A program made the translations under genes and the position numbers. A stretch of DNA of 64,000 bases from Demequina litoralis (lineage in GTDB: Bacteria > Actinomycetota > Actinomycetes > Actinomycetales > Demequinaceae): assembly GCF_030418455.1 (NCBI RefSeq), contig NZ_JAUHPW010000006.1, positions 62,001-126,000 of the forward strand. Direction: 5' to 3'. The number at the start of each line of letters is the position of its first letter. The stretch's first letter is position 1. A model generated the notes under the pieces. That model did no database searches and had not been told where the DNA came from. It worked only from the letters and a program-made list of their open reading frames with translations. This document shows positions 28,137 to 51,365 of this stretch, piece by piece.

Positions 28137-31100
28137 CTACTCGTTCACGGGCTGCGGGGACGAGTGGAGGTCGAGCTCGGCGGCGTCGGTGCGGGCGCGC
28201 TGCGTGCCCGAGTAGAAGCTGCTGAACCGGCTGCGGACGGCCTCCGCGTCGCGCTCCTTCGGCGACAGGGTGACCTCGTCCTCGAGCGGCTGGGCCTCGA
28301 CGGGCTGCTCCTCCGTGCGGCGACGCTTCTGCAGGCCGGCCTTGGTCTTCTCGACCTTGGGGCGGGAGGCCGACAGGGAGCTCAGCTCGGAGAACACCGC
28401 GCGCTGCAGGTCGGCGTCGTCGTCCCAGGTGCGGCCCGACGAGTGCTCGGTGTCGAGCACGGGCTCGTAGCTCGTCGCGGCGGTCTCGTCGGTGGCGGCG
28501 GCCAGCGCCGAGGCGCCGGCGGACTCCCATCCGTGCGCCTCCGCGAGGTCCTCCGGGGTGAACTGCTGCGGCTCGGGGCGGAAGAGCTGCGACTCCGGCA
28601 TGTCCGCGTAGGACGCGTCGGCCGGCTCGGGCTCGAAGGACTGCGCGCGCACGGGCTCGGGCGCCGGCTCGGGCGCCGGCTCCGGCTCGGGTGCGAGCTC
28701 GGGCGTCGGGGCGGGGGCCGCGGGCACCGGGGGCGCGTACGACCACTCGACCTCGGCGCGGGCCTCCTGCTCGCCCGGCTCGAACGCCGCGGGCTCGAAC
28801 GAGGTGGGCGTGGCCGGCGCGGCCACGGGCTCCTCGACGACCGGCTCGGGCTCGGCGGGTGCGAAGGCGGCGGGCTCGTCCTGCGGCGCGGCCGGGGCGA
28901 ACGCCGCGGGTGCGGGCTCCGGCTCGGCGGGCACGGGGGCGGCGGGGGCGAACGGTGCGCGAGCCGGCAGCGCCGCCTGCGGGGCCGTGTCGTCGTCGCG
29001 CTTGCCGCGCCCGAAGAGCCGTCCGAAGAAGCCGGACCGGCCGGACTCCTCGCCGGACGCCTGGGCGATGATGTCGTCGAGGCTCGGGTGCGCCGCCTCG
29101 GGCGCGGTGTACGGGTCCTCGAGCGCCACGTCGGACACGCCGGCGTCCTGCTCGTCCTGGGGCGCGTACGGCGCCGGCTCGAGGGCGGACTCGTGGGCGG
29201 CGGCCGCCGCGGCGAAGGCCGCGGCGTCCATCCACGGGGCGGGCTGATCCACCTGAGGCTCCGGCTCCGCCTGGGCCGCGACGGGCTCGGGCACGACGGG
29301 CTCGGCGTCCGGCTCGAGCGCGGGCTCGGCAGCGGAGGCCCACGGCGCGGGCGGGGTCCACGGGGACTCGGCGGGCTCGGGCAGGTCCACCTGGGTGACG
29401 CTCGCCCACGGCAGCGCGGGCGCGTCCTCCTCGAGCGCGGGCACCTCGTCGGCGCCGCCGTCCTCGGGCTCGAGACCCGGGATCGCGAGGGGAGCCTCGG
29501 CGTCGGGCGCGGTCTCGGGCTCGAGGGCGACCTCTGGCAGGGCCTCGGGCTCCGCCTCGAGTGCCGGAGCGGGCTCGGCAACCGGCTCGGCGGTCGTCTC
29601 CGGAGCGGGCGCAGCGAAGGCGGCGCCGTACGGCGAACGGGCGAACGGCGAGGCCGGCGTGAGGCGCTCTGCCGTCACGACGGGGATCTCGGCGGTGGCC
29701 AGCTTCGGCATCGAGAACGTGGGCAGGGCCGGCACGGCCGGCTCCTCGACGGGCTCGGGTGCCGCCTCCTCGTGCGCGACCGGCGCATCGTCCTGCGGAG
29801 CGGCGGCGGCAGCCTCGTCCTCGTCGGGGGCGAGCGCGACCGGCTCGATCACCGCGGGCTCCTCGGCCGGCTGCTCGGCCGGCGCGTCGTCGCGGTTCAT
29901 GGTCTCGGACGCCCGACGGATCGCATCGAAGGCGGCGAAGGCGCCTCCCGCGGCGCGGGTCGGCAGCGCGGGCGCCTGCTCCTCGGCGGCCTCCACGGGC
30001 TCGCCGAGAGCGTCGGCCATGACCGGGGGCACCGCCTCCGGCAGCGGCTCGGCGGGCGTGCCCTCCTGGGCGTCGCGACGGGAGTGGAAGCCGCGGAACA
30101 TCGACGCGCGCTCCTCGGGCGTCTGCGGCGCCACCTCGGCGGCCGCGACGGTCGGGGTGAAGGCCGCGGCCTCCGCGTCGAGCGCGTCCAGCTGGTCCGC
30201 GGTCGCGCGCACCGGGAGGCCGATGACCTGGGTGCGCTCCTCGGGCTTCTCGGCCGCCTCGGCGGCCGGCTCCTCCGCGCGGCGGCGACGCGTCGGCAGG
30301 CCGCCGGTCGTCGTGCCGGAGGTGAGGTCCGGGGCGATGGCCTCGGCGACCGGCGCCGCGGCGGCGTCGGCGGCGATGAGCGCCTCGATGCCCACGGGGA
30401 GCGGGATGGAGTCGTCGTCCTCGACGGGCTCGTCGGCGGCGCGTCCGGACAGGCTCGCACCCTCGACGACGGTGGTGGGGGCGTACGCCTCGACCTGGGG
30501 GGCCTCGGCGCGCGGCTCCTCGACCACCGGGGCCTGGACGGGCTCCTCGACCGCCTCGAACAGCGAGGACGGCAGCAGGACGGTCGCGACGGTGCCGCGG
30601 CCCTCGACCGAGGACACGGCGACCTGCGCGTCGAGGCGGCGGGCGATGCGGCCGACCACGAAGAGGCCGAGACGCTGGGCACCGAGGATCTCGGAGGCGG
30701 CGGACGACTGCACGCGGCTGTTCGCCTCGGCGAGCTCGGGCACGGTCATGCCGATGCCGGTGTCGACCACCTCGACGGTGAAGCCGGCCTCGGTGCGGCC
30801 GGTGCGCACGATGACGCGCGAGCCCGGGTCGGAGAACACCGTGGCGTTCTCGAGCAGCTCGGCGAACAGGTGCGCGGCGGTGAGGGCCTGGTGGCCGTGC
30901 ATCGCGGGGTCGACCACGAGGTCGAGGTCGACGCGCTCGTAGAGCTCGATCTCGGACGATGCGGTACGGATGACGTCCGACAGCGGCATGGGGCGGCGCA
31001 GGCGACGCCCGGTGTCGATGCCCGCGAGCACGAGCAGCGACTCCGAGTTGCGGCGCATCCGGGTCGCGAGGTGGTCGAGCGCGAACAGGCGCGTGAGGCG

Positions 31101-32822
31101 GTCCGGGTCGTCCTCCGTGCGCTCCATCTCGTCGATGCTCGACAGCTGGCGGTTGAGGAGCACCTGGTCGCGGCGGGCGACGTTGACGAACATCTCCGAG
31201 ATCGAGCCACGCAGGGCGGCCTGCTCACGGGCGATCTCGATGGTCGCGGCGTTGACGCCGTTGAACGCCTCCGCGAGGCGTCCCACCTCGTCCTGCGACT
31301 CGACCGAGATCTGCACCTCGGAGACGTCGACGTCCTCGCCCGGCTGCGCGACGCGCTCCACCAGGCGGGGCAGCTCCTCACGGACCGCGGTCGCCGTCGT
31401 GGTGAGGCGGCGGAGCGGGTTGACGATGCGGCGGGAGATCGCGAAGGCGATCAGCAGCGAGCCGATGACCGCGCCGATGCCGATCGCCAGAGTGATGTAC
31501 GTGGCACCGAGCGCGTTGCGGGTGTTCGCGGTGATCGCGCTCGTGGTGCGGTCCCACGCCTGGTCGCGGAGCGGGAGGTACTGCTCGAGCTCGAGCTCGA
31601 CCTTGCCTGGCCAGTCGGCGGAGCGCGCCGTGACCAGCGACGAGTCGAGCCCGGTGAGGACCGAGTTCTGGATCGTCGTGAACGACGTACCGGTGGTCGA
31701 TGCCGAGGCGCCGAAGTCGGGCACCTCGATCGGCGGCACGAGGCCCGCGCCGCGGGCCTGCGCCTCGTCGAGGGCGATCTTGGTGCGCTCCACGAGGGTA
31801 CGGGTGCCCGCGATCTCGGCGGTGACGAACGAGCCCTGGCGGATGAGGCGCTCGAACACGTCGCCCTCGTAGCGGACGCGCTCGACGAGCATGTCGAGGG
31901 CCGCGTAGGCCTGGAGCGTCGCGACGATGTTGCGGTCGGGCACCGCGAGCGCGACGGCGTCGGTGGCGCCGACGAAGGTGTCGATGACCTCCGTGTAGTA
32001 GTTGAGGATCGTCGAGGTCGACACCTGCGCGGTGCGCACGCCGGCGCGGATCTGCGGCAGCGAGTCGCGCAGCTGGCTTCCGGCGGCCACGGATGCGAGC
32101 GCCGCGGCGTTCTCGTCGGTGGCGTCGACCTCCGCGGCCGCGGCCGCGATGTCGTCGAGGCCCGCGTCGACCTTGGGGAACGTCGCGTCGAGGGCGTCGC
32201 GGTACTCGAGGCTGTCCGAGTAGAGCGAGTGGGCGTAGGCGCCCTCCTGCTCGATGGCGTACGACAGCGCCGCGAGCGGGATGCCGAGGTCGAGGGAGCC
32301 GGGCGCCGCGTCGGCGGTCGCGTCGACCGCCTCCACCGCGTCGGCGTAGGCCGCGTCCATGGTGGCGATCTCGTCGGTGGACGGCATGACGAGCCAGCCA
32401 CCCTCGGACTCGGGCGCGGAGATCTCGAGTGAGCGCGCGTCGGCGAGCATGCTCGCGTCGGATCCGCCCAGGGCTGCGTCCACGCTCGCGAGGACCGCGT
32501 CGGCGTCGTCGTCCTCGCTGCGGGCGACCGCGTCGGCGAGCGTCGCGTAACGTGCGGCGACCTCCTCGCGCGCTGCGCCCAGCTTGGTCGTGGTGTCCTG
32601 CAGGATGTGCACGAACCGCAGCGCGGCGGTGCGCTCGTCCTGAAGGTCGGCCTCCGTCTCGCGGGCCTGCCCCAGCGCGTCGATCAGCCTCTCGGCGTTC
32701 GAGTTCTCGCTGTAGTCGTTGACCGCGCTCAGGGTGATGTAGCTCACCGCCGAGACGAGGACGAGAACGGGCACCATGACGACGGCGAGGAGCTTTCCTC
32801 GAATGCCGAGCCTCTGAAGCAT
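28137..32822 (-). CDS. cvnA: Conservon sensor kinase with nitrate/nitrite-sensing domain (CvnA)
   Basis: This 1561-residue membrane kinase has TM1 (about residues 10-34), an extracellular helical nitrate/nitrite-sensing (NIT) domain up to about 435, TM2 (about 440-460), a HAMP domain and the conserved ALDHLATRMRRNSESLLVLAG helix. A HATPase domain follows (N-box AELLENATVFSDPG, VVDTGIGM, RLGLFVVGRIARRL, about 645-755). Roughly 800 residues of Ala/Pro/Glu-rich low-complexity tail make up the rest, longer than I would expect for this family. The ATG at 32822 follows GGGAGGGAAAGG. The operon continues with cvnB, cvnC and cvnD. No cytochrome P450 gene (cvnE) follows, unlike some Streptomyces conservons. 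Confidence 0.93.
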   Translation of the reverse strand: MLQRLGIRGKLLAVVMVPVLVLVSAVSYITLSAVNDYSENSNAERLIDALGQARETEADLQDERTAALRFVHILQDTTTKLGAAREEVAARYATLADAVARSEDDDADAVLASVDAALGGSDASMLADARSLEISAPESEGGWLVMPSTDEIATMDAAYADAVEAVDATADAAPGSLDLGIPLAALSYAIEQEGAYAHSLYSDSLEYRDALDATFPKVDAGLDDIAAAAAEVDATDENAAALASVAAGSQLRDSLPQIRAGVRTAQVSTSTILNYYTEVIDTFVGATDAVALAVPDRNIVATLQAYAALDMLVERVRYEGDVFERLIRQGSFVTAEIAGTRTLVERTKIALDEAQARGAGLVPPIEVPDFGASASTTGTSFTTIQNSVLTGLDSSLVTARSADWPGKVELELEQYLPLRDQAWDRTTSAITANTRNALGATYITLAIGIGAVIGSLLIAFAISRRIVNPLRRLTTTATAVREELPRLVERVAQPGEDVDVSEVQISVESQDEVGRLAEAFNGVNAATIEIAREQAALRGSISEMFVNVARRDQVLLNRQLSSIDEMERTEDDPDRLTRLFALDHLATRMRRNSESLLVLAGIDTGRRLRRPMPLSDVIRTASSEIELYERVDLDLVVDPAMHGHQALTAAHLFAELLENATVFSDPGSRVIVRTGRTEAGFTVEVVDTGIGMTVPELAEANSRVQSSAASEILGAQRLGLFVVGRIARRLDAQVAVSSVEGRGTVATVLLPSSLFEAVEEPVQAPVVEEPRAEAPQVEAYAPTTVVEGASLSGRAADEPVEDDDSIPLPVGIEALIAADAAAAPVAEAIAPDLTSGTTTGGLPTRRRRAEEPAAEAAEKPEERTQVIGLPVRATADQLDALDAEAAAFTPTVAAAEVAPQTPEERASMFRGFHSRRDAQEGTPAEPLPEAVPPVMADALGEPVEAAEEQAPALPTRAAGGAFAAFDAIRRASETMNRDDAPAEQPAEEPAVIEPVALAPDEDEAAAAAPQDDAPVAHEEAAPEPVEEPAVPALPTFSMPKLATAEIPVVTAERLTPASPFARSPYGAAFAAPAPETTAEPVAEPAPALEAEPEALPEVALEPETAPDAEAPLAIPGLEPEDGGADEVPALEEDAPALPWASVTQVDLPEPAESPWTPPAPWASAAEPALEPDAEPVVPEPVAAQAEPEPQVDQPAPWMDAAAFAAAAAAHESALEPAPYAPQDEQDAGVSDVALEDPYTAPEAAHPSLDDIIAQASGEESGRSGFFGRLFGRGKRDDDTAPQAALPARAPFAPAAPVPAEPEPAPAAFAPAAPQDEPAAFAPAEPEPVVEEPVAAPATPTSFEPAAFEPGEQEARAEVEWSYAPPVPAAPAPTPELAPEPEPAPEPAPEPVRAQSFEPEPADASYADMPESQLFRPEPQQFTPEDLAEAHGWESAGASALAAATDETAATSYEPVLDTEHSSGRTWDDDADLQRAVFSELSSLSASRPKVEKTKAGLQKRRRTEEQPVEAQPLEDEVTLSPKERDAEAVRSRFSSFYSGTQRARTDAAELDLHSSPQPVNE

Positions 32823-32995
32823 GGACCTTTCCCTCCCGAGCCGCCGCACCGGTGTGACGTCTCTGTGCGTGGAGTCAAGCGGCCGCTCCCCCGCTTTATC
32901 GGCCACACCTGGGGGAACATGAGCCATCGTCCACGCGCGATGTTTGTTGAGAGGATATGGGCGGCGCGCTATGACGGAGGAAATCGAAGAAAGTG

Positions 32996-41181: not shown

Positions 41182-41238
41182 CGCCGCCCGGCGTGGCGCG
41201 CATGACATCGTCACCCCTGGTCTGACAGGGTGCTCCGC

Positions 41239-42057
41239 ATGACGAACCGACTCCGCACCCTCGGCCTGGTCGCCGCGACGGCACTCGTGCTCACGGGCTG
41301 CCTCCGCGTCGAGATGTCCATCGCGCTCAACCCGGACGACACCGCCGACGGCAGCTTCCTCATGGCCATCGAGAAGGGCTCGGGCGAGGCCTTCGACGTG
41401 TCGGACGACGACCTGCTCGAGCAGTTCACGGCCGATTCCGAGGGCGACTTCGAGACCGGCACCGTCGAGCCCTACGAGGACGAGGACTACATCGGCACCC
41501 GTGTCTCGTTCGACGACGAGCCGCTGGGCTCGTTCGCCGGGGAGACGGACGACGACCTCGCGATCGTGCGCGACGGCGACGACTACGTGGTGTCCGGCTC
41601 GATGTCCGACGCGGAGGATGAGGACCTCGGCTCGCTTCCGGGCGCCGACATGGTGCTGAGCATCACGTTCCCCGGAGAGGTGAGCGAGCACAACGGCACG
41701 CTCGAGGGCACGACCGTCACGTGGGACCTCATGGACGCGCCCGAGGAGCTCGCGGCGCGGGGCTCCGCCTCGCCGCCCTCGGCGTTCCCGGTGTGGGCCT
41801 GGCCCGCGATCGGCGCGGGCGCCCTCGCGGTCGTCGCGATCGCCGTCGTGGCGGTGCTGCGCCGCCGGGGCGGCACGGACGAGAGCGCGGGGGACGATGC
41901 GGTGGTCCTTCCCGTCGAGACCGTCGAGTTCGTGCCGGGCCCGGCACCCGCGAGCACCGGCATGGACGCCCCGACCGCCGAGCTCCCCACCCCCGCGGAT
42001 ACGATCGAGACGGGGTCCGTCGAGGGCACGGACGGCGAGGAGGACCATCCGCGATGA
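41239..42057 (+). CDS. LppM-like lipoprotein with C-terminal membrane helix
   Basis: This 272-residue protein has a lipobox signal (LVLTGCLRVE, Cys 18) and an acidic extracytoplasmic domain beginning RVEMSIALNPDDTADG, resembling LppM. A C-terminal membrane helix (FPVWAWPAIGAGALAVVAIAVVAVL in part, about 184-208) leads into an acidic cytoplasmic tail. So it may be tethered both by lipid and by a helix. The ATG at 41239 was chosen over an upstream ATG in MLRM. Its stop overlaps the next gene by four bases. LppM in Mycobacterium affects phagosome blocking, but that role need not apply here. Confidence 0.8.
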   Translation: MTNRLRTLGLVAATALVLTGCLRVEMSIALNPDDTADGSFLMAIEKGSGEAFDVSDDDLLEQFTADSEGDFETGTVEPYEDEDYIGTRVSFDDEPLGSFAGETDDDLAIVRDGDDYVVSGSMSDAEDEDLGSLPGADMVLSITFPGEVSEHNGTLEGTTVTWDLMDAPEELAARGSASPPSAFPVWAWPAIGAGALAVVAIAVVAVLRRRGGTDESAGDDAVVLPVETVEFVPGPAPASTGMDAPTAELPTPADTIETGSVEGTDGEEDHPR

Positions 42058-42912: not shown

Positions 42913-45900
42913 TCAGCCCCGGCCGCGTCGCACGACCAGCAGGACCGCACCGGCGGCCACCAGCAGCCCCGCCAGGCCCAGCGGCCACCAGCTGCCGAAG
43001 CCGGTGCTGCTGATCACGCCCGTGGTCGGGGGTGCCGCGAACCAGTTGCGGGCCGTCACGGTGACCGTGGCGCCGGCCTCGACCGTCACGGTGGCGCTGT
43101 CGGGATCGGAACGGTCGGGGAGCACGAGCACGTCGTCGGCGCCGCCCGAGTCGGTCTCCGTCACCACGCACTCCGAGCCGGAGGCGATGGTGTCGAGCGT
43201 GGCGGTGAGCGGATCGCCGCCGCCGAGCGACACCTCGTCGTCCCACGTGACGAGCGCGCCGCCGGGCTGGTCGAGCGTGCACACGACGGAGAACACGAAC
43301 GGGCCCGAGCCGAGCTCGTCGGCGCCGGGACCGGCGACCGTCTTCTCGATGACGAGCTCGCCCGCCTCGAACGTGTTGGTGAAGGTCACCGAGTTCTCGC
43401 CGTCCGGCACGAGCTCCACCCAGCCGCCGGTGCCGTAGGTCACCGACGAGATGTCGCCCATCGTCGACACGACGAGCGTGTCGACCGCGCCCGCGCCGTC
43501 GAGCTCGGTGACGGTGCACTCCGCGCCCGCCGGCAGGCCGTCGATGGTCCACGTCTCGCCGCCGGACACCTGCCCGATCATCGGCTGCCCGGGACCGTAG
43601 CCGTCGCCCCAGACCTCCTCGCCGAGGAAGGTGCACTCGACGCCCATGGTGAACGGCCCGTAGTCCGGCATGTCGCCGTCGGAGTCGAGCGCGTCGGACT
43701 CGACGATCTTGGTGACCTCGAGGCTCGCGAGCTGGTAGTCGTTCGTGACGAACACCTCGTCGTCGACGCCGACCACCGCCTCGCCCGGCACGATCGTGCT
43801 GGACGTCTGTCCGGCGTCCTCCTCGGTGACGATGCACTCGGCGCCGTACGGGATCTCGTCCTGGATGATCACCGAGTAGCCGTTACCGGGGCCGAGCGTG
43901 AAGCTCTCCTCGAACACCGTCTCCCCGTCGACGGTGCAGACGACGGTGACGTCGAAGGCGTCCGGCGCGTAGTCGTGGCCCGGGCCCGTGATGCGCTTGC
44001 GGATCGCGAGGTCACCGGTGAGGAACGAGTTGGTGGCGGTGACGTCGACGCTCTCGTCGGCGCCGATGGTGACCGTGTCGGGCGTCACCTCGACCTCGTC
44101 GGCACCCGCCGCATCGGTCTCCGTGATGACGCATTCGGAGCCTGCCGCGATGTCGTCGATCGTGAGCACGGTGGCGTCGGGGTAGGCGAGCTCCACCTGC
44201 CCGTCCCACGTGACCAGGTCGCCGCCCGCCTGCGGCAGCGTGCACACCACGTCGAAGACGAAGGGTCCCCAACCGACGAGGTCGGCCCCCGGCCCGTCGA
44301 CGATCTTCGTGAGCGTGAGGCTGCCGACCTCGTAGGCGTTGGTGACGAGCGCGGTGTTGTCGTCGGGCTCGAGCACGAGGTCGCCCTCGCTGCCGTCGAT
44401 CACCTCGGGCTCGCCGTCGCCCGCCGTGACGGTCACGGTGACGCTCGCCGCCCCCGAGGTCTCCGTCTCGGTGACGGTGCACTCCGCGCCGGCGGGCAGA
44501 CCGTCGACCGCGAAGGTGTCGCCGTCGCTGAGCGTGGCGTCCATGGGGTTGTCGACGTCGTAGCCGTCGCCCCACACCTCCTCGCCGAGGAACGTGCAGC
44601 GCACCTCGACGTCGAACGGCCCGTACTCGATCGGGTTGCCGTCCGCGTCGACCGCGTCCGACTCGACGAGCTTCGTCACCTCCAGGCCCGCGAGCTGGTA
44701 GTCGTTCGTGACGTCGATCGCGCCGTCCTCGCCGATGACCGCCTCGCCCGGCACCGTCGTCATCGTCGTCTGGCCCGCGTCCTCCTCGGTGACGACGCAC
44801 TCCGCGCCGTACGGGATCTCGTCGACGATCTCGACGGTGTACCCGTTGCCGCCGTCGAGCGTGTACGTCTCCTCGAAGACGGTGCCGCCGTCGGCGGTGC
44901 ACGTGACGGTCACGACGAACTCGTCGGGCGCGTAGCCGGCCCCCGGTCCCGTCACCGCCTTGGTGATGACGAGGTTGCCGGTGTCGAAGCCGTTCGTGGC
45001 CGTCACGTCGACGGTGGCCCCCGGCTCGATGACGATCTCGCCCGGATCCACCTCCACGGTGTCGGCGCCGGCGGAGTCCGTCTCCGTCACCGTGCAGGTC
45101 GAGCCGGCCGCGATGTCGGTGATGGTCTCCGAGGAGAACGTCGGGTAGGTGAGCGAGATCTCGCCCTCCCAGGTGACGATGTCGCCCTCCGGCTGCGGGA
45201 GGGTGCACACCACGTCGAACAGGAACGGCCCCGCTCCGACCAGGTCCGCGCCGGGGCCCGTGACGAGCTTGGTCAGGCGCAGGTCTCCCACGTCGAAGGT
45301 GTTGGTGACGAGGGCGGTGTTGCCGTCGCCCTCCCCGTCGGGCGCGAGGATGATCGTGCCCGCGTCGCCATCGTTCTCGACGGGATCGTCGTCGCCCGCG
45401 GTCGTGGTGACCGTGATGGACGACGCCCCCGCCGTGCCCGTCTCGGTGACCGTGCACTCCGCTCCGGCGGGCAGCCCGTCGACCGCGAAGCTCTCGCCGT
45501 CGCTCAGGGTGGCGTCCATGGGGTTGTCGGCGTCGTAGCCGGTGCCCCACACCTCGTCGCCGAGGAAGGTGCAGCGCACCTCGATGTCGAAGGGACCGAA
45601 CTCGATGGGGTTCCCGTCCGCGTCGACCGCGTCGGACTCGACCGCCTTCGTGACCTCCAGGCCGGCGAGGTCGTAGGTGTTCTCGATCGTCACCCGGCCG
45701 ACCACCGCATCATCCTCCCGCCCGACGGTGCCCTCGGTGATGACGGACGAGGTCTCGCCCGCACCCTCCTCCGAGATGGTGCACTCCGATCCGTACGGCA
45801 GGTCGTCGATCGTGACGACCTCGCCGACCGGCACGGTGAACGTCTCGTCGTAGACGGTCTCGCCCACCGAGGTGCAGACCACCGTGACCGTCACCTCGTC

Positions 45901-48900
45901 CGGCGCGAACTCGACGCCGTCACCCGTGACCTCCTTGAGCACCTCGAGCGGGCCCGTGGCGAGGATGACGCCCACCCGGTTGCCCTCGGTCGGGAGCAGC
46001 TCGCCCCCGGACGTCGTCACGCCGCCGGTGGCGACCGAGTTGTAGGCGACCGTGTCCGCGCCCGGGGTCTCGGACAGCGCGGGCGTCTGCGTCTGCATGT
46101 CGAGCGTGATGTACTCGCCGGGCTGCAGCGGCTCGTCGAAGACGATGTCGTACTGCAGCGCCGTCACCGTGCTGAGGTCGGCGATGTCGTCGATGGGTAC
46201 CCAGGCGCCGTCGGGGCACGGCGTCGCCGGCGTGAGGTCGTCGGTGCAGATCGGGTCGTCGGTGGTGCCGTACACCTCGACCGTCGCGGCGGGGCCGCCG
46301 TACGCGACGAGCGCGTCGACGAGGAGCGGATCCCACTGCGAGCCGCGGTCGGTCGTGTTGATCGCGCCGGTGTCGCCCACGGTCGGCAGCAGGTCGATCG
46401 CGACCACGCGGTCCAGCGGCACGGTGCCCGTGTTCTGGAGCAGCATCCGCCAGGTCTCGGTGTCCCCGGGCGCGGTGATGGGCGTGCAGTTCGGACCGTA
46501 GAAGTCCTCGAGGTACGGCTCGCAGTCGGCCGGCTCGACACCGAGGAGGTCGTCGTCCGCCTTGACGAGCTTGCCTGAGCGCAGCGCGCCCGCGATGCCG
46601 AGCTCGACCGTGGTGTCGGCCTGGCACTCGCCCGTCTCCTCGTCGAACGTGCCGTCGCACTCGTCGAAGGGACGCTCGCCCACGATGCCGAAGCTGTTCG
46701 TCATCGGCACCTCGGCCGCGACGCCCGGACGCGGGAAGAGCGTGATGGTGATCGTGTAGGTCTGCCCCACCTCGAGCACCGTGCCGGGCGGGAACGTGAA
46801 CTCGATCTCCGAGCCGTCACCGGACACCGTCGCGGTGACGTCGGCGGGGTCCGTCGGCATCGGCAGCCCGGTCGCCGGATCGGGGGCCGCGCCGGTGAGG
46901 CCGTAGGAGTACGGGTCGTCGTCGCCGAGCGCGAACTCGAGCATCGGGCCGTCCTCGTCGGTGGGGAGGCGGTCGGTGATGACCGGGTCGATGATCGGCC
47001 AGTCGCCCGTGTTGGTGATGGTGAGCACGAAGTCGGTGGTGCTGCCGGGCGGGATGGTGCCCGTCGGGTCCTTCTCCACGGACACCGCGGTGGTCGCATG
47101 CTCGTACAGCACGGAGGCGGTGTCGTCCTCGGACTGGACGGTGAGGAGCGGGTTGCCGCTCGCGTCCTCGAGGTACGAGCTCACGATGCCGTCGATCGTG
47201 TTGGTCGAGCGGCCCGGCTCGGTCTCGCCGGGCGCCGGGTCGTTGCCCGCCATGTCGGTGGGCACCTCGCCGCCGGTGAGCAGCTCGTCGCGCCGCTGCA
47301 CGATGATGGGGATCTGCTGGTTGGGCGCCTCCGAGTTCTCCCACTGCGTGCCGTCCTCGCGCGTGTACGTGATGCGGATGCCCTGGACATCCTCCGGGTC
47401 GACCCCCGCGGGGAGCGCCGGGACGGGGCCGGGCTCGCCGTCCACCCAGTCCGCGCCGGTGACCACGACCTCGCCGTCGACCTCGGTGAACGTGCCGCCC
47501 GTGAGCACGTCGATCTGCACCTGGTCGATCGGATCGTCGAAGGAGAAGTCGCCGAAGCCGACAAACTCGTACGCGTTCCAGAAGGTCTCGTCCGTGTCCC
47601 GGATCTGCATCATGCCGATGCGGGCGGAACCGCTGGGGTGCGCCGTCAGCAGCATCCCGAACTGGCTCTGGTCGGGCTCGGTCTGCGAGAAGCCGTCCTG
47701 GGTCCAGTCGCTGCCGTCCAGCGGGCCGAACTGCTTCTCGACCGTGAGGCCCAGGTCGAGGCCGGTGATGTCGATGGTCGCCGTGTCGTCCACCGTGGGA
47801 GGGTCGGGCTGGACCTCGGGGTCGCGGCCCGCATCGTCCACCGTGGCCGTGGCCCCGTTGGGGATGGTGAGGACGTCGGGCTCGAGCGGCGCCTCGATGT
47901 CCTCGCCCGTGGTGCGGTTGGTCGCCCTCAGCTGGAGGTCGAACACGAGCACGGCCTGCGCGTCGGGCTCGATGCGGCCCTCGTAGTCGATCGACAGGCC
48001 GACCACGTTCAGCAGGTCCGCGCGCGGGATCGACGTGAGGGGCGTGGCGTCGTCGGGGTCCCCGGGGGTCGACGAGATCACGGTGGTGGTGTCCGCGACG
48101 CCGTCGCCGTTGCTGTCGACGTCGAGCGTCATGGTCCACGACTCGGTGCCGTCGGGCACCTGCATGCTCACGAAGCCGGTGAGGTTGAAGAAGTCGAACG
48201 GGCTCGTGCCCGCCGAGCTGGGGTCCTCGAGGACGAGGTGGTCGATGCGGGCCTGCGTGAGGTTGTCCGCCGTCAGCGTGACGCGGCCCGACGGGTAGTC
48301 CTCGGGCGCGGTGCCCGCCGGCGGGTCGCCGAGCGGGCCGCCGGTCCACTGCTTGTCGAGGCCCACGTTGAGCGGCACGTCGACGATCGCGATGACGTCG
48401 GAGTCCTCGTCCGTGTAGGTCTCGTCGTCGATCACCGCGGTGGCGCCCGCATCGTCCCGGATGAGCGCCTCGCCTTCGACCGGGTCGCCCTCGTTGTAGG
48501 AGTCGTGGCCGGTGACCGGGCTGCCGTCCGAGCGGCGGTCGTCGCGGATCTGGAAGTTGAGGGTGATGGGACGCGACTCGTCGAAGGTGCGCGCGACGCC
48601 GGATCCGGCCGGGGGCGCCGTCGGGTCGGTGGTGGTGAGACGGGCCGAGCCCTCGACGAACACGAGCCGCACGCCGATCGTGTCCGCCTGCTCCGCGGCG
48701 GTCAGCGTGTACCCCGGGAAGGTGCCGTCGCACGCGTCGGGGCACGGGTCGTTGGTGGCGTCGACCCAGCCCTGCCCCTCGCGGTACAGCTCGACGGCCG
48801 CCACCTGGTCCCACTGCATCAGGGGGTCGGTGGCGGTGGTGATCGGGTCGATCGAGACGAGGTCGAAGGCCTCGTAGAAGGACTCCGCGATCGGCGTGCC

Positions 48901-51231
48901 CGCGGGGTCGGGGATGTCGGAGATGGTCATCGAGTCGACGCCCGAGACACCGCCGGTGCCCCACAGGAGCTCGGCCTGGATGATGTCGCCGGTACGCGCG
49001 GCGACCACCTGCTGGATGATGTCCTTCTCGACGTACTCCTCCGTGCCGCCGTTGCCGTTGCCGCCCGAGTCGGGGTCGATCGGCAGGATCTCCACCTCGT
49101 CGCAGCCCTCGTCGGACAGCGCCGGGTCGGTGAGGTCGGAGGTGGCGCCCGCGGTCGCGCAGTTCTCGATGACGAGGGGCTCGTCGCCGAAGTAGTCCTC
49201 GGCGAGCTCGAAGACGATGTTCGGCTGCACCGTGGTGCCGGGCGGGAAGCCGGACTCGGAGGTCGAGTCGTAGACGAACTGGAGGCCGCCGATGTCGTCG
49301 GGCCACGGGCCCGTGTACGACCACGTCGTCGGGCCCGTGATGGGACCCGCGAGGGTCTCCCACGAGTCGCCGTCCCAGTAGTTGACGGTGAGGGTGCTGT
49401 CCGCGAGCACGGCGACCGACGCGATCTCGGTGGGGTCGAAGGCGTCCCAGAACTCGCTCGGCAGCACCGGGGTGTCGTCGGTCGCGCTGGTCGCGGGCGG
49501 GTCCTGCACCACGATCTGCCCGGCGCCGACGGTGGTCGCGTCGTCCGGGAAGGGGACCTCGGTGGGCGCGGTGGTGGTGCCGCCGGGCAGCGTCGCGACG
49601 ATCCACTCGCCGGCGTTGCCGAAGATCGTGCCGGGGATGAGGTTCTTGCCCTGCGTCGCATCGAGCAGCGCGAGGAAGGTCGAGAAGTCGTCGTCGGCCT
49701 CGTCGGTGCCCGTGACGTCCGACGGCGAGGTGCCCTCGACGCCGACGGTGTCGTCGTGCTGGGTGAGCTCGTTGGGATCGTCCGGGTCCGTGCCGAGCGT
49801 GACGTTGACGGTCGCGCTGTCGCCGGGCGGCATGTCCCCGACGAAGTCGATGGTGAAGCGCGTGACCTCGCAGCCCGCGGGAGGCGGGGGCGGCGAGCCG
49901 CCGACGGGGATGTCCTGCGCGGCGGCGTCCGTGCCCGCGCACTCGTAGACGATGGTCGCGCTCGTGGCGCCGGCGGGCCACACGAACGGGTCGGCGAAGC
50001 CCTCGAACGACATCGAGTCGTCGAAGCCGGGCGTGCCGTCGGCGGGCTCGGTGAGCGTGAGGTGCTCGAGGTTCTCCGTCCACGTGTTCTCGCCGGTGAG
50101 CTCGGCGTTGAAGTCGCTGCCGTGCGGCGCGCTGTCCGGGGTGATGGTCTTGCCCGCCTCGACCGACGGCACGTTCGGCAGCAGCGTGTACGTGTCGTCG
50201 TCGCTGTCGGTCCCGGTCTCGTCGTCGCGCGAGACCTCGCTCGTGGCGGTGTTCGTCACGGGGATCGCGGTGTCGACCGCGCCGTTGTCGCGCTGCTCGA
50301 GGCCGGCGTCGATGGTCACCGACGAGCCCGGCTGGATCAGCCCGCCGGTGGAGCTCGAGTAGGTGACCCGGAAGCCGCCCACGTTGCTCGTGTCGGCCGG
50401 GATCTCGGTGACCGGCACCCATGCGCCGTCGATGTAGAGCTCGAGCTCGGCCTGGTCCGCGTCGGGCGGATACGGCGGCCCGTAGTCGAGCGAGCTCAGG
50501 GTGAAGTAGTCGAAGGTGCCGCCCGCCGCGGCGGGGTTCGCCGGGTCCTGGACCACCATCTCGGTGACGCCCTCGTCGGACGTGTTGGTGGCCGTGAGCG
50601 AGAAGCTCGCGTCCGCGCCGGGCTCCGCGAGCGCGGACGTGGGCGCGTCGAACGCCTTGGTGATGTCGGTGGTGAGGTCCAGCGGCACGTTGGGGATGAC
50701 CGTGGCCGTGTCGGCGCACGGGGGCACCGCGTTGGGGGTCGCCGGCACGCACGTCGAGTCCGGGTTGGTCGCGTCGACGAGCGCCTCGTTGGTGAGCGGG
50801 ACCCCGTCCTCCGAGTAGGGGAGGTCGTCGACCACGACGGTGATGATGATCTCGGCGGTGTTGCCCGCCGCCATGCCGATCGAGTCCGCGGGGTCCGAGA
50901 TCGGGTCCGTGAACGTCACGTTCACGTTCTGCCCGTCGATCGACGAGGTGAAGCCCGAGTTGGACGTGACCGAGACGTTGATGGGGGTGAGCCCGGCGGG
51001 AAGCGCGTCGTTCAGCTGCGCGTTGGTGCAGCCCTGGGCGAACGTCGTGCACTGGATGTTGATGTTGAAGTCGAACGTCTGGCCCGGCACCACCTCGGTC
51101 TCGCTCGCCGTCTTGGTGATCGACAGCTGCGCGGCGGGCTCGGCGGCGGCGACGGTGGCGCCGGCGACGATGCCGAGGCTCGCGAGCAGGATCACCAGCA
51201 GAGCAGACAATCCCCGACGACGTGTGGGCAC
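42913..51231 (-). CDS. Giant repeat-rich surface protein (DUF11/DUF5979 type)
   Basis: This protein has about 2772 residues. A Sec signal peptide (GLSALLVILLASLGIVAGATVAAA) is followed by roughly 1700 residues of DUF11-like and related beta-sandwich repeats (LSITKTASETEVVPGQTF, VPLDLTTDITKAF, VPLNVGLDKQW, and others). Then come nine DUF5979-like modules of about 105-110 residues, ordered A-B-C three times. Each module has a Cys pair in a VxCT ... ECxVTE frame. The C-terminus has PPTTG (about 2735-2739), then a membrane helix and VRRGRG, resembling a sortase signal with a non-canonical motif. The GTG at 51231 follows GGGAGG; upstream GTGs (51261, 51279) are possible. It is probably a cell-wall adhesin or fimbria-like subunit. 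Confidence 0.85.
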   Translation of the reverse strand: MPTRRRGLSALLVILLASLGIVAGATVAAAEPAAQLSITKTASETEVVPGQTFDFNINIQCTTFAQGCTNAQLNDALPAGLTPINVSVTSNSGFTSSIDGQNVNVTFTDPISDPADSIGMAAGNTAEIIITVVVDDLPYSEDGVPLTNEALVDATNPDSTCVPATPNAVPPCADTATVIPNVPLDLTTDITKAFDAPTSALAEPGADASFSLTATNTSDEGVTEMVVQDPANPAAAGGTFDYFTLSSLDYGPPYPPDADQAELELYIDGAWVPVTEIPADTSNVGGFRVTYSSSTGGLIQPGSSVTIDAGLEQRDNGAVDTAIPVTNTATSEVSRDDETGTDSDDDTYTLLPNVPSVEAGKTITPDSAPHGSDFNAELTGENTWTENLEHLTLTEPADGTPGFDDSMSFEGFADPFVWPAGATSATIVYECAGTDAAAQDIPVGGSPPPPPAGCEVTRFTIDFVGDMPPGDSATVNVTLGTDPDDPNELTQHDDTVGVEGTSPSDVTGTDEADDDFSTFLALLDATQGKNLIPGTIFGNAGEWIVATLPGGTTTAPTEVPFPDDATTVGAGQIVVQDPPATSATDDTPVLPSEFWDAFDPTEIASVAVLADSTLTVNYWDGDSWETLAGPITGPTTWSYTGPWPDDIGGLQFVYDSTSESGFPPGTTVQPNIVFELAEDYFGDEPLVIENCATAGATSDLTDPALSDEGCDEVEILPIDPDSGGNGNGGTEEYVEKDIIQQVVAARTGDIIQAELLWGTGGVSGVDSMTISDIPDPAGTPIAESFYEAFDLVSIDPITTATDPLMQWDQVAAVELYREGQGWVDATNDPCPDACDGTFPGYTLTAAEQADTIGVRLVFVEGSARLTTTDPTAPPAGSGVARTFDESRPITLNFQIRDDRRSDGSPVTGHDSYNEGDPVEGEALIRDDAGATAVIDDETYTDEDSDVIAIVDVPLNVGLDKQWTGGPLGDPPAGTAPEDYPSGRVTLTADNLTQARIDHLVLEDPSSAGTSPFDFFNLTGFVSMQVPDGTESWTMTLDVDSNGDGVADTTTVISSTPGDPDDATPLTSIPRADLLNVVGLSIDYEGRIEPDAQAVLVFDLQLRATNRTTGEDIEAPLEPDVLTIPNGATATVDDAGRDPEVQPDPPTVDDTATIDITGLDLGLTVEKQFGPLDGSDWTQDGFSQTEPDQSQFGMLLTAHPSGSARIGMMQIRDTDETFWNAYEFVGFGDFSFDDPIDQVQIDVLTGGTFTEVDGEVVVTGADWVDGEPGPVPALPAGVDPEDVQGIRITYTREDGTQWENSEAPNQQIPIIVQRRDELLTGGEVPTDMAGNDPAPGETEPGRSTNTIDGIVSSYLEDASGNPLLTVQSEDDTASVLYEHATTAVSVEKDPTGTIPPGSTTDFVLTITNTGDWPIIDPVITDRLPTDEDGPMLEFALGDDDPYSYGLTGAAPDPATGLPMPTDPADVTATVSGDGSEIEFTFPPGTVLEVGQTYTITITLFPRPGVAAEVPMTNSFGIVGERPFDECDGTFDEETGECQADTTVELGIAGALRSGKLVKADDDLLGVEPADCEPYLEDFYGPNCTPITAPGDTETWRMLLQNTGTVPLDRVVAIDLLPTVGDTGAINTTDRGSQWDPLLVDALVAYGGPAATVEVYGTTDDPICTDDLTPATPCPDGAWVPIDDIADLSTVTALQYDIVFDEPLQPGEYITLDMQTQTPALSETPGADTVAYNSVATGGVTTSGGELLPTEGNRVGVILATGPLEVLKEVTGDGVEFAPDEVTVTVVCTSVGETVYDETFTVPVGEVVTIDDLPYGSECTISEEGAGETSSVITEGTVGREDDAVVGRVTIENTYDLAGLEVTKAVESDAVDADGNPIEFGPFDIEVRCTFLGDEVWGTGYDADNPMDATLSDGESFAVDGLPAGAECTVTETGTAGASSITVTTTAGDDDPVENDGDAGTIILAPDGEGDGNTALVTNTFDVGDLRLTKLVTGPGADLVGAGPFLFDVVCTLPQPEGDIVTWEGEISLTYPTFSSETITDIAAGSTCTVTETDSAGADTVEVDPGEIVIEPGATVDVTATNGFDTGNLVITKAVTGPGAGYAPDEFVVTVTCTADGGTVFEETYTLDGGNGYTVEIVDEIPYGAECVVTEEDAGQTTMTTVPGEAVIGEDGAIDVTNDYQLAGLEVTKLVESDAVDADGNPIEYGPFDVEVRCTFLGEEVWGDGYDVDNPMDATLSDGDTFAVDGLPAGAECTVTETETSGAASVTVTVTAGDGEPEVIDGSEGDLVLEPDDNTALVTNAYEVGSLTLTKIVDGPGADLVGWGPFVFDVVCTLPQAGGDLVTWDGQVELAYPDATVLTIDDIAAGSECVITETDAAGADEVEVTPDTVTIGADESVDVTATNSFLTGDLAIRKRITGPGHDYAPDAFDVTVVCTVDGETVFEESFTLGPGNGYSVIIQDEIPYGAECIVTEEDAGQTSSTIVPGEAVVGVDDEVFVTNDYQLASLEVTKIVESDALDSDGDMPDYGPFTMGVECTFLGEEVWGDGYGPGQPMIGQVSGGETWTIDGLPAGAECTVTELDGAGAVDTLVVSTMGDISSVTYGTGGWVELVPDGENSVTFTNTFEAGELVIEKTVAGPGADELGSGPFVFSVVCTLDQPGGALVTWDDEVSLGGGDPLTATLDTIASGSECVVTETDSGGADDVLVLPDRSDPDSATVTVEAGATVTVTARNWFAAPPTTGVISSTGFGSWWPLGLAGLLVAAGAVLLVVRRGRG
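43036..45948 (-). repeat. Three tandem ~970-bp supermodules in the surface protein gene
   Basis: Corresponding leucine codons (LEVLKEV, LVITKAV, LAIRKRI) fall at 45948, 44973 and 44010, so the periods are 975 and 963 bases, with a third supermodule of about 975 bases ending near 43036. Each contains modules starting with a 'ApDEf/APDAF' A type, a 'ESDAvDaDGnP' B type and a 'GPGADLvG.GPF' C type. The DNA is still visibly similar between copies, so unequal recombination could change the copy number. Confidence 0.85.
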
Positions 51232-51365
51232 GAGACCTCCCGAGCGATGTCCTCGCCGCACCCACCGGCGCGCGCGCACCTTTCGTCACGTTAACCCCAT
51301 CTGTCACATCTGGCGAGAGTTGTGCCCGAATCGTGCTCCGGCGCCCGGGATGGGAGCATTTCCAG

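Follow-up and report, generated by a model that had tools for sequence, protein, structure and literature searches.

The giant gene and its domain plan

The window analysed here, a stretch of 64,000 nucleotides of Demequina litoralis DNA (contig NZ_JAUHPW010000006.1, positions 62,001 to 126,000), belongs to contig 19 of the 22 that make up a 3.02 Mb genome and carries a gene for a giant protein that comprises a candidate export signal, an outer part that reads as nine domains (D1–D9), nine DUF5979 modules and a candidate anchor. A single minus-strand open frame (42913–51279) holds the gene; counted from the GTG at 51279, it is 2788 amino acids (aa) long. The GTG at 51231 is the more probable start, since GGGAGG stands in front of it and VPTRRRGLSALL is where the similarity to the proteins of D. 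maris and D. rhizosphaerae starts; the gene then occupies positions 42913–51231 and encodes 2772 aa. The first-pass annotation of the window had chosen this start, and the ribosome-binding site and the homology both agree with the choice. Residues are numbered here in the 2788-aa frame, and subtracting 16 gives the numbering from 51231. D. maris and D. rhizosphaerae are the nearest named relatives found, with 95% and 96% identity to the window protein over D4–D7.

Nine stretches of the protein match DUF5979 (PF19407), each with 50.6–65.5 bits against the curated cut-off of 25, and the whole protein matches the family with an E-value of 2.8e-117; the Pfam profile at E 0.001 revealed no further DUF5979 match in the genome outside these modules. 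The related CnaB-like family DUF7601 is over its cut-off too (95.2 against 27 bits), its best stretch, residues 1911–1967, overlapping B1. The modules follow the order ABCABCABC, with lengths of 95–96 aa (A), 122–126 aa (B) and 103–110 aa (C). On the minus strand, as all parts of the gene described below, they comprise A1 (45667–45951), B1 (45289–45666), C1 (44980–45288), A2 (44692–44979), B2 (44326–44691), C2 (44017–44325), A3 (43729–44016), B3 (43363–43728) and C3 (43033–43362). All nine are based on the profile match and alignment, A1, B1 and C1 also on a structural model; C1, A2, B2 and C2 form a middle stretch that contains an extra block, as comparison with D. maris indicates. In the multiple alignment, same-letter modules share 46–70% (A), 54–77% (B) and 54–64% (C) identity and modules of different letters share 30–39% (34–48% in pairwise alignment); the letters are set apart by identity and all belong to one family, and therefore A, B and C represent three subtypes of one fold. 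The first-pass annotation had described nine DUF5979-like modules of one gene, grouped in supermodules of 325, 321 and about 325 residues. The single frame and the nine above-threshold stretches confirm this, the blocks measuring 324, 321 and 328 aa, and the profile search that it had proposed as a check placed A, B and C together in DUF5979, with no unrelated families.

The part preceding the modules had been called a long DUF11-like region. This description holds for residues 52–175, in D1, which match DUF11 with 25.9 bits against a cut-off of 24.6, but not for the remainder, since the Pfam search gave no over-cut-off DUF11 (PF01345) match in D2–D9 of the window protein. The region reads as nine further domains, each with a lysine at its start, followed by an acidic residue and a putative partner Asn or Asp. 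D1 (50665–51126; Lys56, Asp91, Asn164) is CnaA-like by its match to DUF11, the family of the CLIPPER domain. D2 (50161–50664; Lys208, Asp245, Asn343) and D3 (49657–50160; Lys377, Glu411, Asp510), which have no Pfam match and whose borders were set from the lysines, are presumed to be CnaA-like by residue order, as are D8 (46582–47085; Lys1403, Asp1436, Asn1528), with a weak match to DUF7604 under the cut-off, and D9 (45952–46581; Lys1570, Asp1629, Asn1747), which was recognised by its residues. Between them lie D4 (49039–49656; Lys545, Asp593, Asn706), modelled as an Ig-like beta sandwich, D5 (48367–49038; Lys752, Asp788, Asn929), modelled as a beta domain, and D6 (47749–48366; Lys976, Asp1019, Asn1141) and D7 (47086–47748; Lys1182, Asp1228, Asn1360), both modelled as CnaA-like. 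The D4–D7 stretch (47080–49668, 863 residues) is found in several actinobacterial genera, with 31–96% identity to the window; none of 33 members shows a Pfam match over it (E 0.001), and its profile matched no PDB sequence (E 0.01). It is the part of the protein with real novelty, being composed of predicted isopeptide-type domains that lack a family model.

The ends of the protein were read from the sequence. The signal peptide region (approximately 51127–51231) has an Arg-rich start, a hydrophobic stretch and ATVAAAEPA; the anchor (42913–43032) contains the sorting-like motif ISSTGFG, a hydrophobic stretch and an RRGRG tail before the stop codon. Sixteen other Demequina genes have at the same C-terminal place either [LI]xxTG[FY] (15 genes) or LPISGF (one); expressed by the core motif, LPxTG is present in eight, another xxTG in seven and LPISG in one. 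The genome contains two sortases by PF04203, one of class E (233 bits, cut-off 160) and a second nearest to class F (106.5 bits, cut-off 166); neither reaches the class C cut-off and neither is encoded inside the window. Features of a sortase substrate are the hydrophobic stretch that follows the motif, the basic tail and the presence of a sortase in the genome, and a chain of 18 domains with a candidate export signal and a candidate surface anchor has those of a fibrillar adhesin. With moderate confidence, the giant protein can be regarded as wall-linked.

Conserved residues, putative bonds and predicted structures

Five residues are invariant in all nine modules, namely a Lys in the first strand, a Cys, the Cys and Glu of an ECxVTE motif and an Asn in the last strand. 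The Lys, Glu and Asn, whose invariance the first-pass annotation did not mention, constitute a CnaB-type isopeptide triad. The annotation had placed one Cys near the start and one near the end of each module; two Cys are indeed present in each of the nine, but the second, that of ECxVTE, sits mid-module, with 35–55 residues after it, including the Asn strand. DUF5979 is listed as a CnaB-like isopeptide family with the solved example 4BUG (Lys610-Glu680-Asn715) in the available part of PMC12617251 (Table 1), and a profile of the nine modules matches PDB entry 5u5o, a domain of the Mobiluncus mulieris giant adhesin (E 0.0027), with the Lys, both Cys and the Glu in register. The earlier suggestion of stalks that are either disulfide-locked or isopeptide-like thus becomes "probably both", given the complete triads, the CnaB-like listing and the aligned Mobiluncus domain: each module probably holds two bonds, one isopeptide and one disulfide.

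The conservation extends over the genus. In 133 modules from 19 Demequina loci the Lys, both Cys and the Glu are each present without exception, and the bond-partner column, realigned with full module ends, contains Asn in 130 modules and Asp in three; these modules have 148 Lys in total, 133 of them on the bond column. Across 473 modules from 64 loci, the Lys is found in 457 (with 13 gaps), the two Cys in 467 and 473 and the Glu in 468. With module ends as first cut, the Asn was counted in 268 (hmmalign) or 319 (pattern search) of the 340 modules beyond the Demequina set; shortened ends lower such counts, as the 133 Demequina modules themselves gave 24 gaps with hmmalign and 124 Asn by pattern. 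L050 and L051, loci from a single fragmented Demequina genome, were counted among these others, outside the 133 modules. The chance that nine random Lys on 973 residues would all land on the nine family positions is about 10^-21, a figure that speaks against random placement only, as the modules share descent.

The outer domains were compared in 43 proteins of several genera, the window protein included. The domain-start Lys is present in all 43 proteins in eight domains and in 32 in D1 (11 gaps), the acidic Asp or Glu in all 43 in eight domains and in 33 in D1 (seven gaps and three Pro), and the partner Asn or Asp in all 43 in all nine domains; the partner in D3 of the window, Asp510, is replaced by Asn in 39 of the 43 proteins. 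The gaps in D1 are likely due to the cutting of the outer parts 1850 residues before the first module. The 43 proteins were taken from 64 non-duplicate loci by the position of the first module beyond residue 1700 and a hand-written locus list, and at least four of the 21 loci left out (L085, L094, L100 and L102) have long outer parts.

The chain is strongly acidic, with 501 Asp and Glu against 76 Lys and Arg in 2788 residues. It contains only 19 Lys, of which 18 are the domain-start residues and the 19th stands three residues after one of them. The 34 Cys are distributed as none, two or four per domain, so that 15 of the 18 domains have one or two pairs, and the chain could hold 17 disulfides in addition to 18 isopeptide bonds; the disulfides, like the isopeptide bonds, are putative. 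A purge of spare Lys that would avoid wrong bonds was considered and is not claimed. One off-position Lys stands against 9.9 expected from the 57 Arg of the protein and the Lys/(Lys+Arg) share of 0.148 in 37 crudely called window frames, but this ratio ranges from 0 to 0.79 among window frames and from 0 to 0.08 in the neighbouring LppM, MFS and VanZ genes, and 17 Demequina outer parts have 229 Lys, 76 of them off the nine bond columns.

AlphaFold2 models were obtained for seven of the 18 domains, A1-B1-C1 and D4–D7. The A1-B1-C1 model, based on 28 sequences, has a mean predicted local distance difference test (pLDDT) score of 94.1 and a predicted template modelling (pTM) score of 0.83. The first-pass annotation had proposed the prediction of one A-B-C block as a check for a repeated fold, and the model contains three like domains, each with the Lys in its first strand and the Asn in its last. 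Its structural neighbours are mostly pilins and adhesins of Gram-positive bacteria, the CnaB-like ones being nearest: 3b2m_A (Z-score 12.1, root-mean-square deviation (rmsd) 4.1, 207 residues aligned), residues 602–719 of Cpa (2xic_A) for module B (Z-score 11.5, rmsd 2.5, 107 aligned) and the Mobiluncus structure 5u6f (Z-score 11.3, rmsd 5.9, 156 aligned). The D4–D7 model (33 rows, mean pLDDT 89.9, pTM score 0.69) is Ig-like. D7 resembles BcpA (3kpt_A; Z-score 11.2, rmsd 2.5, 132 aligned) and D6, besides BcpA, the CLIPPER crystal structure 9ifr (Z-score 9.9, rmsd 2.5, 120 aligned); a CnaA-like fold with the Lys-Asp-Asn order is clear for these two only among the modelled domains D4–D7. The single-domain rows for D4 are an integrin (Z-score 11.1, rmsd 2.7) and a cohesin, and the D4–D7 comparison listing contains no single-domain row for D5. 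The restriction of the partner position to Asn and Asp, together with the solved relatives, makes a fairly strong case that isopeptide bonds form in the domains.

Distribution, the extra block and neighbouring genes

DUF5979 is over the cut-off in 25 of 47 genomes of the family and in 85 of 297 genomes of the order. The D4–D7 profile is rarer: at E 0.001 it matches six genomes (four strongly, the window genome included) among 296 from across the phylum. The window array is the sole nine-module one among the 19 Demequina loci. The ABCABC plan was found in D. maris, D. rhizosphaerae, D. soli and D. phytophila and ABCABCAC in D. salsinemoris; the thirteen further loci comprise twelve with ABCBCBC and one with ABCBCBCC. 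The number of modules in these loci thus takes values of 6, 7, 8 and 9 between species, one genome per species having been compared, and ranges from 5 to 15 in 26 proteins from other genera. The count leaves aside genomes in which DUF5979 matched once or twice; among these, the Demequina genomes G012, G033, G034 and G039 each contain one or two matches and encode a shorter protein, in frames of about 1900–1980 aa, one of them with an internal stop. Array length in Demequina may therefore span 1 to 9 modules. As for the duplication of a three-domain block, proposed in the first-pass annotation from the A-B-C order, growth by threes holds for this clade, four relatives having ABCABC, but the extra block does not represent a fresh copy of those beside it, and BC is repeated instead in most of the other Demequina loci examined.

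A comparison with D. maris indicates where the array differs. Modules A1, B1, A3, B3 and C3 are 88–99% identical to D. maris modules 1, 2, 4, 5 and 6, the outer domains are 88–98% identical and the anchor 77%. The C1-A2-B2-C2 stretch (44017–45288) occupies the place of a single C module in the relatives, and the best matches of its modules, sought among 464 other modules minus those of 70 aa or less, have 56, 70, 84 and 65% identity, respectively. C1, A2 and C2 are thus diverged, and B2 (84%) is hardly more so than B1 (88%). A recent event that simply duplicated one ABC block in tandem was rejected, as the flanks are 88–99% identical to their counterparts and the best identities in the middle are 56–84%. 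In a FastTree tree of 41 modules, in which several other nodes are weak, C1 pairs with C2 (support 0.91) outside module 3 of the relatives (0.99). Three observations speak against a foreign cassette: B2 is scarcely more diverged than B1, it groups with module 2 of the relatives (0.83), and the fourfold-degenerate sites of C2 agree with those of D. maris at 0.56 (n = 36), the flanks at 0.58–0.86 with lowest values of 0.58–0.59, which is a weak difference. No closer source of the stretch was found in 47 genomes of the family, the best near-full-length match having 59% identity and the best partial match 61%, the window excluded. The extra block may have been imported, its source being a lineage outside the sample, or it may go back to an old duplication that was lost in the sister species.

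Ten open frames around the giant gene were scanned, and the neighbours include genes for an LppM-type lipoprotein, a phosphoglucomutase and an MFS transporter, none of which is linked to the giant gene by any finding. The gene of the LppM-domain lipoprotein (41230–42057, plus strand) is convergent with the giant gene, and its very acidic product contains 21% Asp and Glu. Elsewhere in the window, a 1596-aa open frame on the minus strand (28137–32927) encodes NIT sensor, HAMP and histidine-kinase ATPase domains, a great length for a sensor kinase.

Proposed function and comparison with known systems

The features listed above are best explained by a sortase-anchored fibrillar adhesin or stalk of 18 chained domains with a bond in each, a reading that is considered likely. 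The signal peptide would export the chain, and the class E sortase would most likely join it to the cell wall via the C-terminal xxTG motif. The chain would then project as 18 beta-sandwich domains, the nine CnaA-like or presumed CnaA-like ones outward and the nine CnaB-like DUF5979 modules near the wall. At about 4.5–5 nm per domain, the stalk would span some 80–90 nm. Once folded, each domain would link its first strand to its last by an internal isopeptide bond, Lys-Asn or Lys-Asp, with the help of a buried Glu in the CnaB-like domains and of Asp or Glu in the CnaA-like ones; such bonds would make the stalk resistant to pulling, unfolding and proteases. The outer domains would make the contact with a partner, be it a cell, a particle or a surface, and the number of DUF5979 modules, which differs between species by several modules at once, would set the reach. 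Adhesion is proposed with moderate confidence; the first-pass annotation, too, had put the function forward as an inference only. Length as a selected trait is weakly suggested.

Several observations weigh against this reading. The borders and partner columns of the outer domains were chosen from conserved residues, so that the residue counts there are not an independent test. The motif of the window protein is ISSTG rather than the canonical LPxTG or LAxTG, and its anchor matches no Pfam or NCBIfam anchor model (E 0.1). The outer part is present in only 23 of the 47 genomes of the family, and the Pfam search revealed neither a tip (ligand-binding) domain nor a thioester domain in the giant protein; no adhesive domain was recognised in searches of Pfam, NCBIfam and PDB sequences. 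Six of 16 other Demequina frames, taken from stop to stop, have an odd number of Cys, and therefore not every Cys there need be paired. The available text of PMC10619420 prints the disulfide of the Mobiluncus domain as Cys6887-Cys6895, eight residues apart, and the Cys aligned with those of the modules lie 28 apart; the printed numbering is possibly a misprint. Foldseek template modelling (TM) scores, normalised by the query, are low over whole models (0.10–0.45 for A1-B1-C1 and 0.08–0.25 for D4–D7), as multi-domain chains give because linked domains sit at differing angles. Integrins head the structural lists of D4–D7, with the alpha chain 6avq_A at a Z-score of 13.7 and an rmsd of 11.9. An integrin-like tip was set aside, as the low-rmsd rows of D6 and D7 are CnaA-like and the integrin rows were taken to reflect the common look of chained Ig-like domains, a rejection that is less firm for D4.

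The same cross-linked chain could instead serve as a structural coat, a sheath or a strut of the biofilm matrix, with spacing or armour as its job and no specific partner. The failure of Pfam to recognise a ligand-binding domain and the very acidic chain, as a hydrated brush might be, would suit this role, which is nevertheless rather unlikely. The patchy presence of the outer part among the genomes of the family would be unusual for a coat, and the two closest relatives keep the length of the outer part nearly constant while the wall-proximal array differs by three modules, as would suit a stalk that varies in length beneath a constant tip. It is much less probable that the conserved residues are relics of the family and that at most a few of the 18 bonds form. 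The bonds are proposed from residues and relatives, which leaves room for such relics, but relics would drift, and the partner column contains only Asn and Asp over the 43 outer parts and the 133 Demequina modules, in which the Lys are likewise concentrated on the bond column. Lys can react with these two residues alone. Least probable of all is that the protein is a pilin-like subunit which a sortase polymerises, and not a single-chain stalk. Pilins (Spy0128, PitA/PitB, RrgB and BcpA) do make up many of the closest solved folds, but neither of the two genome sortases qualifies as class C or lies in the window, the scanned neighbours include no pilins and the giant protein is far longer than pilin subunits.

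A broader extension of the adhesin or stalk reading is offered tentatively and is doubtful as a whole: overlooked actinobacterial giants of about 2300–3700 aa would have all their domains locked by isopeptide bonds, D4–D7 and perhaps further domains would represent isopeptide families absent from Pfam, and the stalks would take up whole multi-module pieces. Pieces from diverged relatives would enter at module borders, and one recombination step would change both reach and surface identity, the tip staying fixed. According to the legend of figure 3 in PMC12617251, from the part of that paper available, the AlphaFold Database holds nothing longer than 1280 residues, and giants of 2300–3700 aa therefore fall outside a structure-based survey of that kind. 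In the open-licence PMC literature searched, that paper was the one found to name the DUF5979 domain, and no paper on this Demequina protein was recognised.

If the bonds form, about 2700 residues of a protein from an environmental genus would combine as many as 18 isopeptide bonds with as many as 17 disulfides, and the known isopeptide-type domains would be joined by others that lack a Pfam family and lay beyond the reach of a structure survey with a 1280-residue limit. Such proteins may provide non-pathogen sources of self-locking domains for tag/catcher chemistry and tough fibres, and the arrays of 5 to 15 modules offer a natural stalk series for comparing length, divergence and module exchange. 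The Demequina giant changes no principle: the idea of such a stalk and the chemistry of its bonds are already known, and bonds of the same kind occur in streptococcal pilins and in the giant adhesin of Mobiluncus.

Periscope Proteins (SasG, Rib and Sgo_0707) are described in the available text of PMC8201768 as wall-anchored rods of tandem "highly similar" domains, the number of which sets the reach. The Demequina protein shares this plan, but its same-letter modules are 46–77% identical and thus lack such high similarity, and its variation is seen between species only. The C-terminal domain of Cpa (Spy0125) of Streptococcus pyogenes (4BUG, 2XIC), a protein titled a pilus-presented adhesin in its PDB entry, belongs to the same Pfam family as the modules and has the same fold and Lys-Glu-Asn triad; unlike the array, it is listed in the part of PMC12617251 available (Table 1) as one such domain (603–718) and not as a tandem series. 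The modelled D6 and D7 share their fold and Lys-Asp-Asn order with CLIPPER (9ifr) and the CnaA-like domains of BcpA; unlike CLIPPER, which belongs to DUF11, D4–D7 have no Pfam or PDB profile match. The closest parallel in plan is the Mobiluncus mulieris giant adhesin, reported in the available part of PMC10619420 as a chain of 7651 aa with 51 Ig-like domains (PDB 5u5o and 5u6f), an isopeptide bond and a disulfide in one domain, the latter joining strands 2 and 5. Both proteins are very long tandem Ig-like chains, and one solved isopeptide domain of the Mobiluncus adhesin aligns with the Demequina modules at the Lys, both Cys and the Glu. The Mobiluncus adhesin, as far as the same text describes it, also contains ester-bond domains and a predicted thioester bond, and the Pfam search matched no ester-bond or thioester domain in the Demequina giant; the latter differs in chaining nine CnaA-like or presumed CnaA-like domains with nine CnaB-like ones.

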